From positions 248,001 through 312,000 of the forward strand of contig NC_006395.1 of the NCBI RefSeq assembly GCF_000011085.1: 64,000 nucleotides of DNA. Direction: 5' to 3'. The notes below the pieces were generated by a model, which did no database searches, was not told the DNA's origin, and saw only the letters and a program-made list of their open reading frames with translations. The stretch comes from Haloarcula marismortui ATCC 43049 (GTDB lineage: Archaea > Halobacteriota > Halobacteria > Halobacteriales > Haloarculaceae). Within the stretch, counting starts at the first letter, position 1. Every line of letters starts with the position of its first letter. Positions 9,075 through 33,644 of this stretch are shown piece by piece. Made by a program: the position numbers and the translations under genes.

Positions 9075-10307
9075 TCACTCGGCGGCCTTCGTCTGCACAG
9101 CGTTCAGCAGTACCTCAGTCCCGGTGACGATGTCATCCCATTCGGTGAATTCGCTCTCGCGATGGCTGATTCCGTCGACGCTTGGAACGAAAATCATGCT
9201 CGTCGGAGCTATCTTGTTGAGGTAGTTCGCATCGTGGCCCGCGCCGCTGACCAGTCGCGTGTACTCACAGCCGACCGTCTCGGCGGCCTCGACGACTGTG
9301 TCAATGCAGCCCTGATCGAACGGGTCCGCGTCGACCCGCATTATTTCCTCTATCTCGTATTCAAGGCCTTCGCGCTCGGCCGCGTGGGCGACCTCTTCCC
9401 TGATCTGTTCGACGGCCGCGTCGACCACAGCATCGTCGTACGAGCGGAAATCGAGCGTGAATTCCACCGTCTCGGGGATGACGTTGATAGCGTTTGGCCA
9501 CACGTCGACACTGCCAACTGTCCCGACGAGGTCCGTTCCTTCAGTCGCTGTGATCCGCCGGACTGCGCGGGTTACGTCCGCCGTCGCCACGAACGCGTCG
9601 TGGCGCATATCCATCGGTGTCGGCCCGGCGTGGTTCGCTTGGCCCTCGAAAGTGACGTTCAGCCAGGAAAAGCCGAACACGCCTTCGACAGCGGCGACTG
9701 GGATGTCCTGCTGCTCGAGAAACGGCCCCTGCTCGACGTGCATCTCGAAGTAGCAGTGGATGTCATCCGCTTCACAGGATGTTTCGCCCTTGTAGCCGAT
9801 GCGTTCGAGTTCATCGCCGAACCGCCTGCTCTCCTTGTCCTCGCGCTCGTACGCGTAGTCGAGGTCGAAGATATCACAGTAGACACCGCTGCCGAGCATA
9901 TCCGGCTGAAACCGGACGCCCTCCTCGTTGCTCCAGTCAACGACCTCCAGTGGACGTTCGGTCGTCACGCCGGCGTCGTTGAACGCCTCGATGACTTCCA
10001 ATCCACCGAGGACGCCGATAACGCCGTCGTACCGCCCGCCGTTGTACTGGCTGTCGATGTGTGACCCGAACAGAACCGGCGCGGCGTCGCTGTCAGTTCC
10101 GTCTCGCCGACCGAAGATGTTGCCCATCGTATCGATACGGACCTCCAGCCCGGCCTCCCGGAACCACTCGACCAGTGTGTCGCGGGCCGCCTTGTTCTCG
10201 TCGGACAGGCTCGGCCTGTTCACGCCGCCCCGTTCTGTCGCGCCGATCTTGTTGAACGTATCGAAGCGCCGTCTGAACCGCTCGCTATCGAGACTGACGG
10301 ATGGCAT
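9075..10307 (-). CDS. M20-family Zn-dependent amidohydrolase (N-carbamoyl-amino acid / allantoate type)
   Basis: This 410-residue enzyme belongs to the hydantoinase/carbamoylase branch of M20, which includes allantoate amidohydrolase, ureidoglycine hydrolase and N-carbamoyl-L-amino acid hydrolase. Metal-binding motifs are GSHIDSQYNGGRYDG (H83, D94), SNEEG (E128-E129), MHVEQGPFLE and C-terminal GAGHDANYL; HAGPTPM is the dimerisation-domain signature. It should hydrolyse an N-carbamoyl or ureido substrate, releasing ammonia and CO2. The ATG at 10307 is favoured; the frame remains open to 10403 but that part is not family-like. It is transcribed divergently from the D-aminoacylase homologue. The exact substrate is unknown. 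Confidence 0.88.
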   Translation of the reverse strand: MPSVSLDSERFRRRFDTFNKIGATERGGVNRPSLSDENKAARDTLVEWFREAGLEVRIDTMGNIFGRRDGTDSDAAPVLFGSHIDSQYNGGRYDGVIGVLGGLEVIEAFNDAGVTTERPLEVVDWSNEEGVRFQPDMLGSGVYCDIFDLDYAYEREDKESRRFGDELERIGYKGETSCEADDIHCYFEMHVEQGPFLEQQDIPVAAVEGVFGFSWLNVTFEGQANHAGPTPMDMRHDAFVATADVTRAVRRITATEGTDLVGTVGSVDVWPNAINVIPETVEFTLDFRSYDDAVVDAAVEQIREEVAHAAEREGLEYEIEEIMRVDADPFDQGCIDTVVEAAETVGCEYTRLVSGAGHDANYLNKIAPTSMIFVPSVDGISHRESEFTEWDDIVTGTEVLLNAVQTKAAE

Positions 10308-27202: not shown

Positions 27203-28051
27203 ATGGCAACTATCCGCGTACGTGATTGGACAAAAGAACAGATAGAGAAGATACGTGACACGGAGTCGCACTCCTCGCACGATTCGGTTATCAAGTCACT
27301 ACTGAAAGACCGAAAGTTGGCCAAATACGCGGATGATGCCGCAGAGGCCGCTCCGGAGTCGATATCCGAGTCTTGGACGAATGAACCTGACACTGCGTTT
27401 GATGACCTGACTGTGCTCGGTGAACTGTCCGGTGCAGACAACGGGGTGTTGTTTCTCTGGTGTCCCAATTGCGGAAACGAACTGGCGCACTTGACTGCGG
27501 ATAACCCACTTGGCCTGTCCGTGTTCGAGATCGAATGCCAGCGCTGTCTCACCCATCTTGACCGACACGCTATCGTTGCCATCGAAATCGGTTATCCGAT
27601 CGAGCAGAAACTGGTTGAGGACTGTCTGCAAGACGACCTCAAGAAGTGTGTCGTGGACTACTGGGACCGGACACTCGATTCCGCCGCTGTGGGAGCGCTT
27701 GATGCCGATCTTGACCCGGCACATCTCGTCTGGCAGTTCGACCAGTATCTTCGGCAGTTCTCATGGCAGTGGCCTGCGGATGTCCCCGTTGTCGGCTTTG
27801 CCACGGGCGAAACCTATCGCAACACCACCACCGGTGAGTACCTCGAAGTTATCGAACCAGTCTCAGAGAACCGAAACGCAATGGATTCGTTCAAGATACG
27901 ACGGTACACCGGCGACCCAGAAACCCACGACAGTGAGACGGAAATTCTCGATAGCACTACCGTTGTCGATCACATTGTTAATCGGCGACTTCTAATCCAA
28001 GCCCGTACCGACTCGGAGTCACTACCCGAGTCGACTGAACCGACAACGTGA
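27203..28051 (+). CDS. Unknown protein with ribbon-helix-helix-like N terminus and zinc ribbon
   Basis: A 282-residue protein with no family I recognise. The N-terminal 45 residues (ATIRVRDWTKEQIEKIRD, then a second helix) resemble the ribbon-helix-helix heads common in small haloarchaeal DNA-binding proteins. A zinc ribbon follows (CPNC near residue 90 and CQRC near 115). The rest is a mixed alpha/beta region rich in Trp and Asp, with no catalytic motif. I start at the ATG at 27203, 39 nt after the TATA box; the frame is open to 27134. It may work with the preceding gene, as they form a pair in an AT-rich patch. Confidence 0.7.
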   Translation: MATIRVRDWTKEQIEKIRDTESHSSHDSVIKSLLKDRKLAKYADDAAEAAPESISESWTNEPDTAFDDLTVLGELSGADNGVLFLWCPNCGNELAHLTADNPLGLSVFEIECQRCLTHLDRHAIVAIEIGYPIEQKLVEDCLQDDLKKCVVDYWDRTLDSAAVGALDADLDPAHLVWQFDQYLRQFSWQWPADVPVVGFATGETYRNTTTGEYLEVIEPVSENRNAMDSFKIRRYTGDPETHDSETEILDSTTVVDHIVNRRLLIQARTDSESLPESTEPTT

Positions 28052-28260
28052 CCAGCGCAATTGGTCTGCATAGATATCTTTCGACTTCAGTTCTTCACAG
28101 TCTGAGTAAGCTCACACACGACTTAGATAGACGAAGTGATATTAAAACAAGAGAGAAATAGCCAAGATAGCCTTCTACAAGTCATATTTGTAGCCGGATT
28201 GTCGAAATATAGTCCCACAGTGCTAATATCTTGCCCTACTTTGAAAACAGATACTGCGTA
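28052..28260. other. AT-rich intergenic region, nothing recognised
   Basis: About 209 bp between convergent genes. It is AT-rich with no ORF, no clear hairpin and no RNA gene that I can see. It closes the accessory patch on the right. Confidence 0.5.
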
Positions 28261-29031
28261 TTAGCTGGTCTCGTCTGTTGGACGGGAACATCGAAGGCAC
28301 ACAACGCTCTCTGCGACCCAGTTCACATCTGTCGAGCCACAGTGTGGGCAGCGGTGGTGGTCGGTGTCGTACTCCGTCGTCCCCCGAGGGGTCGCAAGGA
28401 AGCCGTCGTTAATGACCTGCTGAATAAGACTTGGGAACCGCTGGCGTTTGACGACGGCTCGCTGTGCGAGGAACCTGCCGGGGTCGCCCGGGTCTGTGCC
28501 ATGGAGGTCTTCCCAGGGAAGAGCGATTTCGCCGTTGGCGGGGCCACGGGCGACCTGCTGGATGAGCGTTGCAGCGGACTCGAACAGCGGCGTCGTCCCC
28601 CACGCCTGCGGGTTGTCAATAGCACTTCCAGCGTCTTTGTAGGCTGATTCCGCCTCGCGGTACGCCGCCTCGACACCGTCGAGCCCTGCAACGGTTCGGA
28701 AATCCGCGACGAACTCATCGAGACAAGCGTGCTGAACCGGATGCTCGAGCCCGTTGGTCAAATCCTTGGCCACGGCGACGCCCTCGACGCCACGACGGGT
28801 GGCGCGTGTGTCGTTTCCGGCGACACGGTAACAGACCGCGCTTGTTGCGAGGTACTGAAGCCCGTCACCGACCCAGCCCTTCTCGTCAGCACCGAACGGC
28901 TCAATGCCTTCTCGCGGGTCCGAGAGAACACGCCACCCAGCCCGCGTGTATTCGTCTCCAGCCCGCCGATAATCGCGGTCAGCGATAGCAGCGACTGCTG
29001 CCGCTCGGTGTCCTGCATCCTGTGTGCGCAT
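28261..29031 (-). CDS. Conserved haloarchaeal protein with C-terminal zinc ribbon
   Basis: A 256-residue protein of unknown function. The first 180 residues are alpha-helical and Ala-rich, with repeat-like helical pairs (YRRAGDEYTRAGWRVL, AAYREAESAYKDAG) that suggest a TPR-like scaffold. The C-terminal 35 residues form a zinc ribbon (CPHCGST near 228 and CLRC near 246). The ATG at 29031 is preferred over the in-frame start at 29076. It is transcribed divergently from the membrane protein gene at 29138. Confidence 0.75.
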   Translation of the reverse strand: MRTQDAGHRAAAVAAIADRDYRRAGDEYTRAGWRVLSDPREGIEPFGADEKGWVGDGLQYLATSAVCYRVAGNDTRATRRGVEGVAVAKDLTNGLEHPVQHACLDEFVADFRTVAGLDGVEAAYREAESAYKDAGSAIDNPQAWGTTPLFESAATLIQQVARGPANGEIALPWEDLHGTDPGDPGRFLAQRAVVKRQRFPSLIQQVINDGFLATPRGTTEYDTDHHRCPHCGSTDVNWVAESVVCLRCSRPTDETS

Positions 29032-29137
29032 GAAGCCCTTACGGGGTACGCCCTGACAGGCTTTCGCACCCAACAAATCGGTATCACAGTCGGCCTGAAC
29101 CGTCAGACAGAATACAGCCCCGCCCTCTCAGTGGTAC

Positions 29138-29611
29138 ATGGAGTCGGTACCTCTTGTTACGGCGCTTACGGTGTCATTTCGGTTTGTTATCGGGGTGGTT
29201 GCCGCTGTCGCCGCGACGGTTGTGATGGATCTGGTAATGGCCAGACTGCCGGAAGGCGAAACACCGCCGTTCATTGCCTCCGGTGTGTTAACAAACAGTG
29301 TTCCAGCCGACGCGCCGGGTCGGCTTGCGAACGTCGTCCATTACATCGCTGGCTGGTTGACTGGGCCGTTGTTCGTCTGGATGCTTCTCACCAGCGAAGG
29401 CCTTCTCGGTGGCCAGTCAATACTCGCGACAGTCGTCGCTGCTGCGGTCCTCTATTCGCTGATGGTCGGCTTCTTTGTCTTTGTCGTGCTCCCACGTTCC
29501 CGACTGCCGTCGGCTCGGATGGCGGATATCCGACGGGACTGGGCGATTTCGGCGGCTGCGTATCTACTCGTCCTCGTGCCACTCGTCGCACTCGGGTCTC
29601 GGATCGTCTGA
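29138..29611 (+). CDS. Four-helix integral membrane protein, unknown function
   Basis: A 157-residue protein with four predicted membrane segments (about residues 8-33, 64-85, 92-118 and 133-155). The short hydrophilic loop between helices 1 and 2 contains ARLPEGETPPF. I see no catalytic or transport motif. The stop is 68 nt from the end of the convergent hemerythrin fusion gene, with no obvious terminator between. Confidence 0.72.
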   Translation: MESVPLVTALTVSFRFVIGVVAAVAATVVMDLVMARLPEGETPPFIASGVLTNSVPADAPGRLANVVHYIAGWLTGPLFVWMLLTSEGLLGGQSILATVVAAAVLYSLMVGFFVFVVLPRSRLPSARMADIRRDWAISAAAYLLVLVPLVALGSRIV

Positions 29612-29679
29612 CCTGAGTTGAAGCGCAATCCTCTTTGGCTGAACGGTAACCGGGGTGTTTACTGCCCGCCTGACGGCGC

Positions 29680-31533
29680 TCACTCGCCGACCGACAGCGT
29701 GCCGTCCGGCCCCACCTCACCGACTTCGCCGGTGTGATACCAGTCGTCCCGAAGCGTTTGTGAGCCAGTCTGGCCGTCGTCGAGGAACCCACCGAGGACG
29801 GTTGGCCCACGGATCAATAGTTCTCTGTTTTCGGAGACAGCGATTTCAACGCCCGGCATTGGGTCGCCAATCGACCCCTGGACGAAGGATTCTGCCGGGT
29901 TCAGTGCGCCGACACCGGTTGTTCCGACCGAACCGTATAGCTCGCATACCGGAACGCCAAGCCCCCGGAAGAAGTACAGCAGATGGTCGTCGAGTCGGCC
30001 AGTCCCGGAGAGAGCGTAGGTGAGGTTTGATAACCCCGCTTCTTGCCGCAGCGGCTTGTACACGAGCCGGTTGGCGGCTCTGTATTTCAGCGGCGTTCCC
30101 TGGCCTTCGACGATACCCTCTCCGTAGGACGCCACTCGACCGCCGACCTTCCGTTTCATCCAGCCCATGTCACCCAGACGGTCCTGTATCGTCCCGTAGA
30201 GCTGCTGGTACATCTTCGGGACACCGACGAGCACCTCCGGCTCAACAGCCGCGAGTTGGTCGACAAACTCCTCGGCCCCGAGGTATGCGACGGCACTCCC
30301 GGTCGCCCAGAGGTAGTATGTCGAAACACGCTGATAGATGTGTGCCAGCGGAAGCGAACAGGTCCCGGTCGCTCCGGGACCGGTAGGAAGCGCCTCGCGG
30401 AGGCTCTCTGCTGCCGCCAGAAGATTTCGATGTGTCAGCGCACAGCCGGCCTTCTCTGCGGGGGAAGCCACGTCAAACGCGACTGTCGCAACCTCGTCAC
30501 CGTCCGTCTGCAGACCGGGCAGCACTCTCGCCTCAGCAGTCGGTAAGTCCTCGAAATCGAGCACGGTTTCGACGGCCATCGCGAGGTCGTCGGCCACGTC
30601 TCCCGCTGCCACGAGTCCGGTTGCGCCGGTCCGCTCGATAATCTGGGCTGCCCGGTCGTCGCTCGCGGACGGGTAGAGTGCAACCGGGACCAGCCCGGCG
30701 AAGTGACAGGCCAGGTCGAGCACGGACCACTCGTATTGGGACTGTGCTCTGATTGCCAGTCGGTCCCCGGGGCGCAGTTCCGTCGATAGGAGGCCGCCCG
30801 CAACTGCCTTCGCCCGCTCGGCCAACTCTTCGAAACTCCGTTCGACGAACTCGCCGTCATCTCGGACGAGCGCCGCGGTCCGGTCCCCGTGGTCCGAAAC
30901 GATGTCTTCGAACCAGGACGCTACTGACCCGTCCGGGACCGAAAGCGAGGCTCCGTCGTAGATGTCGCTGTCGAGGCGCACACCGGCGTCCTCGCTCTGG
31001 CGATCAACTGGGACGGGGTCTTCTGATGCCGTCCGGTCATGATAGAGCTGCCCGGGTTCGTACTCGTAGTCGTCACTGACCTCTGTCTGGAAGTAGTCAG
31101 CGTAGTTCTGGTCCTCGTCGCCGGCGGCGATGTGCGCATCGAGCCAGTCCCGGGCAACTGTCAGGACCTCCATCGTGACGTACTCCCCGTTTTCGTGTTT
31201 CTCGCGGAGTTCTTGCACCTTGTCGGCGAACTCTTCGTGCATCTCACGGTGATTGTAGAAACAGTCGCTGCAGTCCATGGCGTAGCCACAGTTCTGCATG
31301 AACTCTTCCTCGTCACCGAAATGGTACTCCGTGTAGCGTTCAAGTTCCCGGAGAATGTCACCAACCTCCTCCTCGGAATGGCCCTCGTTCATCGCCGTGT
31401 GGAGGTCGTTCAGCAGCCCGAACAGGCGCTTGTGCTGTTCATCGAACCGCTCGATATTCGTGCTGTACCGTTCGTCATCCCACTCGGCGAACTCCCCTGT
31501 CGAATCTGTGCCCATACCTGTTCTGTTACCCAT
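29680..31533 (-). CDS. Hemerythrin domain fused to a degenerate, truncated acyl-CoA-ligase-like domain
   Basis: A 617-residue two-domain protein. Residues 15-150 form a complete bacteriohemerythrin domain with all expected di-iron ligands: H34, H71, E75, H95, H99, H134, D139. Residues about 200-617 resemble the N-terminal domain of long-chain acyl-CoA synthetases (ALTHRNLL, PLAHIYQR, GVPKMYQQLYG, WYHTGEVGEVG). The phosphate-binding TSGTTGxPKG motif is replaced by DVASPAEKAG. The protein stops right after the A7-like motif, so the mobile C-terminal domain with the catalytic lysine is missing. It is therefore probably a pseudoenzyme or lipid-sensing module coupled to an O2/NO-binding domain (inference). 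Starts at 31533 or 31515 are both possible. Confidence 0.87.
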   Translation of the reverse strand: MGNRTGMGTDSTGEFAEWDDERYSTNIERFDEQHKRLFGLLNDLHTAMNEGHSEEEVGDILRELERYTEYHFGDEEEFMQNCGYAMDCSDCFYNHREMHEEFADKVQELREKHENGEYVTMEVLTVARDWLDAHIAAGDEDQNYADYFQTEVSDDYEYEPGQLYHDRTASEDPVPVDRQSEDAGVRLDSDIYDGASLSVPDGSVASWFEDIVSDHGDRTAALVRDDGEFVERSFEELAERAKAVAGGLLSTELRPGDRLAIRAQSQYEWSVLDLACHFAGLVPVALYPSASDDRAAQIIERTGATGLVAAGDVADDLAMAVETVLDFEDLPTAEARVLPGLQTDGDEVATVAFDVASPAEKAGCALTHRNLLAAAESLREALPTGPGATGTCSLPLAHIYQRVSTYYLWATGSAVAYLGAEEFVDQLAAVEPEVLVGVPKMYQQLYGTIQDRLGDMGWMKRKVGGRVASYGEGIVEGQGTPLKYRAANRLVYKPLRQEAGLSNLTYALSGTGRLDDHLLYFFRGLGVPVCELYGSVGTTGVGALNPAESFVQGSIGDPMPGVEIAVSENRELLIRGPTVLGGFLDDGQTGSQTLRDDWYHTGEVGEVGPDGTLSVGE

Positions 31534-31617
31534 TATTTGAAAAGCAACTCTCACGTTCTCACCGAATGAAAATGCGGTCTGCTCTCCAAGTAGTTGCCAG
31601 ATAACGTTGCATCCGGG

Positions 31618-32052
31618 ATGCGAGAATTACGTGACGAAGCGGTCGTTGATGTCCTCACTGACAACGGAATCGGCGTGCTGGCGCTGTCCGGCCCGACGGG
31701 GGCGGCCCCGTATCCGTTCCCGGTCGCGTTCGGGTACGACCCGGCGACGGATAGCCTTGCGTTTCACCTGTCAGAGAGCGACGATAGCCAGAAACACCGG
31801 TATCTGACCGCGGACGCCACCGTCGGGTTCATGGTGTACGAGGAAACCGAGCCCAAATCGGTCTGGCGAAGCGTCGTGGTCACGGGTGAGCTGGTAGAGA
31901 CGACGTACGGCGAGGTAGAACCGGCCCTTGCCTCGCTGGCCAGCAACACACAGTTCGCCCCGAACCCAGTCAGCTGGGACGACACATCGACGACGACGCC
32001 GTACGAACTTCGAATCGACGACTGGTATGGACGTGAATTCCGAGTCGGGTGA
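31618..32052 (+). CDS. Pyridoxamine 5'-phosphate oxidase-like FMN-binding protein
   Basis: A 144-residue split-barrel flavoprotein of a type common in haloarchaea. The core strands are clear: GIGVLALSGPTGAAPYPFPVAFGYD and SLAFHLSESDDSQKH, then ATVGFMVYEE. It lacks the PLP-specific signature of true PdxH, so an FMN or F420 binding role is more likely. I start at the ATG at 31618; the frame can be extended to a TTG at 31594, which is less likely. It is divergent from the hemerythrin fusion and may share its promoter region. Confidence 0.78.
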   Translation: MRELRDEAVVDVLTDNGIGVLALSGPTGAAPYPFPVAFGYDPATDSLAFHLSESDDSQKHRYLTADATVGFMVYEETEPKSVWRSVVVTGELVETTYGEVEPALASLASNTQFAPNPVSWDDTSTTTPYELRIDDWYGREFRVG

Positions 32053-32194
32053 AACCGGTGTTGCAATCCACTAACAGCAGCGGGTATCGAACTCCTCTGG
32101 AGCGCTGTATTCGCTGCTCCGCGTCGCGGCTTGTGTTCTCACTTCTCGGGAACCAGCGCACGTAATTATGTTGTGAGGCCCGTATCTACAAACA

Positions 32195-32200
32195 GAGGTG
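32195..32200 (+). promoter_or_regulatory. Ribosome-binding site of the SHOCT-domain protein
   Basis: GAGGTG lies 6 nt before the ATG at 32207 and pairs with the 16S rRNA 3' end. It favours that ATG over the GTG at 32198, which is part of the RBS itself. Confidence 0.6.
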
Positions 32201-32206
32201 TTCCAG

Positions 32207-32485
32207 ATGCTACCGCCAACAACTGCGCTACTCCAGCACGGACCGATGGGGCCCCACGGTGGGGGAATGGGTATGGGCACGACTCCGGTCGGTTGGTGGC
32301 TGCTGCTCGCAGCGTTCATCATCGCTGTTGTGGCGATAGGGGGCCTGCTGTACGTGCAGCTACAGCGCGAGGCGACGGTTGAGCCGGATTCACTGGAAAC
32401 GCTTAAACAGCAGTACGCATCCGGTGAGATTGACGAGAGCGAACTTGAAACGCGGGCTGACCGCTTGCTCCAGCACGAGTCATAG
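32207..32485 (+). CDS. Small membrane protein with SHOCT domain
   Basis: A 92-residue protein with a Gly/Met-rich N-terminal segment (PHGGGMGMGTTP), one membrane helix (about residues 29-50), and a C-terminal SHOCT motif (LKQQYASGEIDESELETR). SHOCT domains are short oligomerisation or tethering modules. Many haloarchaeal genomes encode such a protein, with no known specific role. The start is set by the RBS at 32195. Confidence 0.8.
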   Translation: MLPPTTALLQHGPMGPHGGGMGMGTTPVGWWLLLAAFIIAVVAIGGLLYVQLQREATVEPDSLETLKQQYASGEIDESELETRADRLLQHES

Positions 32486-32631
32486 GCCACGACACTGGCA
32501 GTTTTCAGCCGCTGTTAGTTGGCGGAAGGAGCGTCACCCGTAGCAGCGTAAACTGTGTCACCCTGCTTGCGCCCACGACTGCCTGACACGCACTTCGTGG
32601 TACATTTATTCTACAACGGTGTACGGTGGGT

Positions 32632-33249
32632 ATGGACCCGGACGACGTTCGAGACGACTGGGCCTCCCGTTCCGGGAAGTTCTCGCCGGCGTACTACGCC
32701 GAACTCGGACCGAATGAGGTGAGTGAGACACTGGTCAACGTGCTCGACCACTACGTCCACGACGACGCCCGAATCATCGAACTGGGCTGTGGCTCGGGCC
32801 GCCATCTGGCACACCTGCAGACCAGCGGATACGGGAATCTCACTGGTATCGACATCAACGACGAATCCTTTGACGTGATGGCTGAGCACTACCCGCGGCT
32901 CGCGGATTCGGGGACGTTCCACACCGGTGCCCTCGAAGACATTGTTACTGAGTTCGAGGACGATGCCTTCGATGTCGTCTATTCGGTTGAGACGCTCCAG
33001 CACATCCACCCGGACGACGCATGGGTGTTCGAAGAAATCGCCCGTATTGCCGGCGACCTCCTCGTAATCGCCGAAAACGAAGGCAACAGCCCCGAACGTG
33101 GACGCGCAGACACTGACGTGAGCTACGTCGATGACGATTTCCCACTGTATCACCGCAACTGGAAGCAGGTGTTCTCAGAGCTCGGGTTCGCACAACTAAT
33201 TCGAGAACCCACCTCTCGGGACACTATTCGCGTGTTCCGTGCGCCGTAG
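32632..33249 (+). CDS. Class I SAM-dependent methyltransferase
   Basis: A 205-residue Rossmann-fold methyltransferase with motif I IIELGCGSGRHL near residue 50, the acidic strand end GIDIND, and FDVVYSVETLQHI as motif IV. The target is not identifiable. ATTTATT near 32604 lies about 26 nt before the ATG at 32632, consistent with a leaderless transcript, and rules against the GTG at 32626. Confidence 0.83.
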   Translation: MDPDDVRDDWASRSGKFSPAYYAELGPNEVSETLVNVLDHYVHDDARIIELGCGSGRHLAHLQTSGYGNLTGIDINDESFDVMAEHYPRLADSGTFHTGALEDIVTEFEDDAFDVVYSVETLQHIHPDDAWVFEEIARIAGDLLVIAENEGNSPERGRADTDVSYVDDDFPLYHRNWKQVFSELGFAQLIREPTSRDTIRVFRAP

Positions 33250-33374
33250 CCCGCATTGGTATCTGTCACTTCTGGGCGACTCCATAATCGAACAGCTACC
33301 CGTCGGGACATTCACAATCGATAACCGGGCAGCAACTATTTGTGTCACGGTATCATGCATCAAATTGGATCGCT

Positions 33375-33644
33375 ATGCAACTGTGCCAAAACTGTCAGGC
33401 GGCTATCGACGAGTACCTCTTGGACAAACAACTCGAACCCCTGCGAGACCTCACAGTCGACGACTTCAATCTCTGTGCAGACTGCGTGACAGTCGTCGCG
33501 GACGCCTGTGTGGAATGTGACGGCGCGGTGTACGTTCCCCGGTCTGAAACTGCTGTCCCTGACTGCTGTCCGGCGTGCCGGTCGGAGCACATTGACGAAA
33601 CCGGGACCGACCCGGGCTGGCATTTCGACACGGTGTCGACCTGA
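33375..33644 (+). CDS. Small multi-zinc-finger protein
   Basis: An 89-residue protein with four CxxC pairs (CQNC, CADC, CVEC and CCPAC), enough for two zinc sites. The middle contains EPLRDLTVDDFNLC. I do not recognise a named family. Small proteins of this kind are common in haloarchaea and often bind nucleic acids or partner proteins. The ATG at 33375 precedes the first CxxC directly. Confidence 0.75.
   Translation: MQLCQNCQAAIDEYLLDKQLEPLRDLTVDDFNLCADCVTVVADACVECDGAVYVPRSETAVPDCCPACRSEHIDETGTDPGWHFDTVST

Follow-up and report, generated by a model that had tools for sequence, protein, structure and literature searches.

What can a hemerythrin do with an acyl-CoA ligase domain that has lost its catalytic motifs? 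The question is raised by a gene on a 410.5 kb replicon of Haloarcula marismortui, within the 64,000-nucleotide stretch of DNA analysed here (the window), whose product is named "bacteriohemerythrin" in RefSeq. By megablast, window positions 28000-33500 are 100% identical to NZ_CP039137 of strain ATCC 43049. Fusion to signalling domains is common among bacterial hemerythrins (PMC4919030, PMC9388753), and the hemerythrin-coupled sensors described there (Hr-MCP, Hr-GGDEF) also carry hemerythrin at a protein terminus together with another module. Unlike these sensors, the fusion has a dead metabolic enzyme as partner and no known signalling output. The 2016 survey of Alvarez-Carreno et al. lists, in its available part, an O2-binding hemerythrin with an AMP-binding domain in Euryarchaeota, assigned to Methanococci (PMC4919030), a euryarchaeal protein that thus combines the two Pfam families seen here; the entry as given there is an architecture listing, with no mention of a dead ligase or of function, regulation or catalysis of the pair. 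The initial annotation had stated that no system of this kind was described, which needs narrowing: the pair of domains was listed in 2016, and the available parts of the literature yielded neither a functional study nor a statement that the ligase is dead. Literature searches pairing hemerythrin with acyl-CoA synthetase, haloarchaea or Haloarcula brought up nothing of relevance. The bare architecture is already known; what is new is the dead yet conserved ligase, its origin and its putative regulon.

Architecture and hemerythrin half

As seen in Table 1, a single unbroken frame holds a bacteriohemerythrin at the N-terminus followed by the large N-domain of an acyl-CoA ligase. The only Pfam matches are PF01814 (E = 5e-12) and PF00501 (E = 2e-39), i.e. 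known signalling output domains are absent. The fusion had initially been placed at 29680-31533; its architecture and open frame stand, and its start was set six codons too early, because RefSeq, the aligned relatives and the fixed distance of 40 bp to the promoter element (see below) concur on the downstream ATG. The earlier reading of a ligase frame intact over 400 residues also holds, with the ligase part at about residues 200-611.

The hemerythrin half scores above the cut-offs of NF033749 (111.5 bits, cut-off 84) and TIGR02481 (98.7, cut-off 51.75), and its predicted four-helix fold (pLDDT 85) matches McHr (4xpw) with a TMt of 0.89 and an rmsd of 1.6; it shares the fold and ligand set of bacteriohemerythrins such as McHr and DcrH-Hr. 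The seven expected di-iron ligand types (five His, one Glu and one Asp) are found, as first noted from the sequence. H28, H65, E69, H89, H93 and H128 are invariant in alignments of 19 and of 25 members. The identity of the seventh ligand is uncertain from the alignment: D133, five residues past H128, is D, N or E among relatives, and D135, in a DxxY setting, is invariant. Unlike McHr and DcrH-Hr, the fusion has this ambiguous Asp, an attached ligase N-domain, and a five-residue insertion (relative to McHr) near the di-iron helix that results in three Cys, CX5CX2C (residues 76-85; window 31261-31290, minus strand), beside the di-iron site. These Cys are invariant across fused members and also kept in single-domain haloarchaeal hemerythrins; they possibly form a redox or metal site. 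The fusion is the sole hemerythrin gene found in the H. marismortui genome, and its di-iron site would be occupied by O2 or NO.

Table 1. Features of the fusion locus (window positions, except for the last row)
Feature	Position	Strand	Evidence or remark
Whole fusion gene, 611 aa	29680..31515	-	ATG at 31515, TGA at 29680-29682
Hemerythrin half, residues 1-155	31051..31515	-	Ligands H28, H65, E69, H89, H93, H128, D133 or D135; Cys-rich loop C76, C82, C85; fold match 4xpw
Variable linker, residues 156-200	30916..31050	-	Low pLDDT over much of the linker
Pseudo-ligase half, residues 201-611, ANL N-domain only	29683..30915	-	PF00501; model TMt 0.86 to MenE N-domain 5bus_B
Degenerate A3 P-loop region, residues 346-358, AFDVASPAEKAGC	30442..30480	-	Aligned against 15 active relatives
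A7-like YHTGEVG, with Glu in place of the ribose Asp at 597, and protein end at A8 hinge position, residues 593-611	29683..29739	-	
TATA-like box TTTTCAAATA of a leaderless-type promoter, about 20 bp upstream of ATG	31534..31543	-	Sequence
Promoter palindrome TTTTCA-N5-YGRGAA, here TTTTCATTCGGTGAGAA, 40 bp before ATG	31556..31572	-	
Divergent PPOX-type gene (PF12900 Pyridox_ox_2), conserved neighbour	31618..32052	+	
Other palindrome copies in H. marismortui	G000 C7:136454, C8:33390, C8:677868, C8:2226803, C8:3084876, C9:135400		

Motif loss and origin of the ligase half

The ligase half (PF00501, 136 bits; cut-off 29.9) is modelled with high confidence over residues 201-611 as an N-domain of the ANL superfamily, and matches MenE, the FadD13 N-domain and similar structures (TMt 0.80-0.87 against N-domain chains). 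It shares fold and sequence with long-chain acyl-CoA ligases, and its closest ANL relatives are active single-domain haloarchaeal ligases (L020 and L084-L086; 41% identity to L020 over residues 156-608). Unlike ANL ligases, the fusion has no P-loop, no A5 Gly and no C-domain at all, and has gained the N-terminal hemerythrin.

The roles of motifs A3, A5, A7 and A8 are well established for the ANL superfamily. We compared them between 25 fused proteins and 15 haloarchaeal ligases, the latter called active on the presence of all catalytic motifs in their sequences. The A3 P-loop TSGTTGxPKG is present in 15/15 active relatives and gone in 25/25 fused proteins, where the former loop is hypervariable with no conserved substitute; in the window protein it has become DVASPAEKAG, as the initial annotation had read it. 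The A5 Gly (motif EGYG), invariant in active ligases, is L, V or I in all 25 fused proteins. The C-terminal domain with the catalytic Lys is missing, again as first described: the window protein ends at the hinge position, at which the active relatives have GRKKE, and all fused members end there or shortly past it, with a normal P-loop or C-domain in none of those examined. Further residues differ by lineage. In the window's clade, A5 Thr has changed to Val, A5 Glu to Gly and A7 Asp to Glu, and two members of the genus Haloarcula are missing the A4 His too; A5 Glu and A7 Asp are retained in the Halovenus and Salinibaculum fusions, some of which end in GRK or GSK. Read from these alignments, catalysis appears to have been lost ancestrally, with further nucleotide-binding residues lost later in some lineages, and the ligase half of the window's clade probably binds no nucleotide.

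Other motifs had been read as well preserved, and many core positions are indeed kept. Fused proteins show good conservation of HxYQRxxxYYLW in A4, and 27 of the 66 columns invariant in active ligases are retained in at least 22 of the 25. The kept fold and core positions, with the A5 Glu and A7 Asp of Halovenus and Salinibaculum, would suit a pseudo-ligase that, in line with the sensing role proposed in the initial annotation, is coupled to the hemerythrin and binds but does not convert a fatty acid, acyl-CoA or adenylate. Such a ligand sensor is unlikely in our judgement, given the hypervariable A3 loop, the universal replacement of A5 Gly, and the loss of A5 Thr, A5 Glu and A7 Asp in the window's clade and of A4 His in two Haloarcula-genus members; the first three of these points also speak against the adenylate sensing that the initial annotation had suggested.

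The fusion was found in 35 of 146 Haloarculaceae genomes, spread over six GTDB genera (Haloarcula, Halorientalis, Halosimplex, Halomicrobium, Halovenus and Salinibaculum). The other five genomes of the same listing have an unfused ligase match only, and the three inspected (G190, G193, G327) encode full-length ligases with intact P-loops. Outside Haloarculaceae, sampling of 391 genomes from the class and 393 from the phylum turned up no fused relative. The same domain order, P-loop loss and truncation are common to the fused orthologues examined, across genera, with no full-length active ligase half among them. In a tree of the 25 fused and 15 active ligases, the fused halves form one clade (support 100/99), sister to an active single-domain ligase (98/95), and the simplest account is therefore one fusion and one inactivation, which would predate the split of the six genera. 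A local truncation or sequencing artefact is excluded, since truncation and P-loop loss are common to several genera.

The divergent PPOX-type gene starts 102 bp from the fusion start. It adjoins the fusion in 14/14 main-clade Haloarcula, and also in Halorientalis, Halosimplex, Halomicrobium, Salinibaculum litoreum, strain SHR40 and several Halovenus. Five divergent Haloarcula-genus members and both fusion copies of Salinibaculum KK48 have no such neighbour, nor do any of five single-domain hemerythrins taken for comparison. In Halovenus aranensis, Halovenus salina and Salinibaculum KK48 (L046, L050, L044; around 9866-9920), a form III RuBisCO gene follows the fusion on its strand after a gap of 30-53 bp. 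This adjacency occurs in Halovenus and Salinibaculum only, so it probably reflects clade synteny and we rejected a RuBisCO link.

Selection on the two halves

By simple NG86 estimates, which leave rate variation unmodelled, dN/dS among 14 Haloarcula comes to 0.033 in the hemerythrin half, 0.113 in the ligase half and 0.13 in the linker. As a control we fetched the active long-chain ligase from 11 Haloarcula genomes; over these same 11, dN/dS is 0.037 for the hemerythrin, 0.103 for the dead ligase and 0.076 for the active ligase. The ligase half is less constrained in other clades (0.13 to 0.38), still below 1. The estimates, alongside the active-ligase control, exclude neutral decay, and the purifying selection whose presence the initial annotation had left to be checked is seen at a dN/dS of about 0.10 in Haloarcula. 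Of the two outcomes that the initial annotation had named as refuting it, full-length active ligases in the orthologues and neutral evolution of the domain, neither was observed.

In Haloarcula, evolution of the ligase half is about threefold faster than that of the hemerythrin half, and in some clades it is faster still (dN/dS 0.21-0.38), which could indicate a weakly constrained scaffold. This faster evolution would be expected of a passive remnant that stabilises or solubilises the hemerythrin under selection for folding only, as would the state of the L016 genome, where a stretch of the fusion is locally shifted in frame, some 20 residues of an eroded C-domain follow the hinge, and a second fusion copy is broken (G018 C1:67160-68632). 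We find a mere remnant doubtful, since about 410 residues stay in frame over six genera with a constraint in Haloarcula near that of the active ligase, and since single-domain hemerythrins of the same family occur without a ligase half. An active but unusual adenylating enzyme, with a partner replacing the missing loop and C-domain, is highly improbable: isolated ANL N-domains do fold and have been solved alone (PDB), and two genera keep A5 Glu and A7 Asp, but the P-loop has no conserved replacement, the A5 and A7 residues are lost in the window's clade, and the H. marismortui genome has no free-standing C-domain gene (all 12 PF13193 matches are in ORFs of at least 529 aa), which excludes a C-domain supplied by a separate gene.

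Promoter element, candidate regulon and proposed role

Of 34 fusion promoters, 33 have a 17-bp palindrome, TTTTCA-N5-YGRGAA, located 40-42 bp before the ATG. The match is exact in 26, has one mismatch in 5 and two mismatches in 2, both of which are more perfect palindromes (TTCCCA-N5-CGGGAA). In shuffled upstream sequences, an exact match was found in 0 of 6,800 and a one-mismatch match in 0.03%. The H. marismortui genome has 7 copies versus 0 for a reversed control, and 20 further genomes have 82 versus 2. The only fusion promoter without it belongs to the second fusion copy of Salinibaculum KK48 (L040), which is plasmid-borne and also has no PPOX neighbour.

Recurring families downstream of the palindrome include DoxX/DoxD (10), a DmsR_N/HTH_10 regulator of 210-218 aa (10), MCP transducers (8), a short unnamed protein (6) and DUF2267 (2), and before many of the non-fusion genes the palindrome is again about 42 bp from the ATG. 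It also precedes a multicopper oxidase in two genomes, and a CtaA-like heme A synthase and an AhbD-like radical SAM protein in single genomes each; single occurrences may be due to chance. In the window, a one-mismatch copy, TTCTCACTTCTCGGGAA (32136-32152, plus strand), lies upstream of the adjoining SHOCT-domain gene; a possible GTG start of this gene follows about 45 bp on, at 32198, and RefSeq sets the start at 32273. A DUF2267-Usp cluster with the palindrome (G000 C7:134500-136900, L107) is flanked by PPOX-type genes, which echoes the pairing at the fusion.

The palindrome would mark a small Haloarculaceae regulon comprising DoxX, the DmsR-type regulator, an MCP transducer, DUF2267 and the hemerythrin fusion, and, as judged from promoter sequences, it lends indirect support to a tie between the fusion and oxygen or respiration. 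Since its own promoter carries the palindrome, the DmsR_N/HTH_10 regulator (in H. marismortui at G000 C8 near 3,084,935) is a candidate binding factor, which we offer as a guess. That a gene of this type bears the element of the fusion recalls the NarO/DmsR (HTH_10) anaerobic regulation of haloarchaea; unlike in that system, the element here is TTTTCA-N5-YGRGAA. The published NarO/denitrification box is CGAA-N4-TTCG (PMC5746218) or CGAAYATDKTYG (PMC10062603), and identity with it is excluded by this difference. No published match to the 17-bp palindrome was found in the literature.

Taking the locus as a whole, we regard as fairly probable that the fusion is an O2- (or NO-) binding bacteriohemerythrin of a Haloarculaceae respiratory regulon, and that its C-terminal half is an acyl-CoA-ligase N-domain, catalytically dead and put to a new use. 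The hemerythrin half would bind O2 or NO, the gene would be expressed within a respiratory or redox programme, and the pseudo-ligase would be retained as a non-catalytic module for a purpose other than adenylation. Dimerisation or docking to a partner is the most likely such purpose, because the fold is conserved and the nucleotide site lost, with acyl-ligand binding less likely; the gas-binding state of the hemerythrin might then be passed to, or concentrated at, the docked partner. More tentatively, the protein may be a gas-sensing switch that uses a retired acyl-CoA ligase as the output or partner-docking domain of its hemerythrin, within a new oxygen- or redox-responsive TTTTCA-N5-YGRGAA regulon probably run by a DmsR-type, cysteine-bearing regulator; we see this fuller picture as possible rather than probable.

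Enzymes that become non-catalytic modules have rarely been followed all the way from an active sister to a dead descendant that is conserved, and for this fusion the tree, the selection test and the control were all obtained. Through the fusion we also came upon a promoter element, apparently unreported, that hemerythrin, DoxX, chemotaxis-transducer and regulator genes have in common, and this palindrome offers a direct, testable route into oxygen or redox control in Haloarculaceae.
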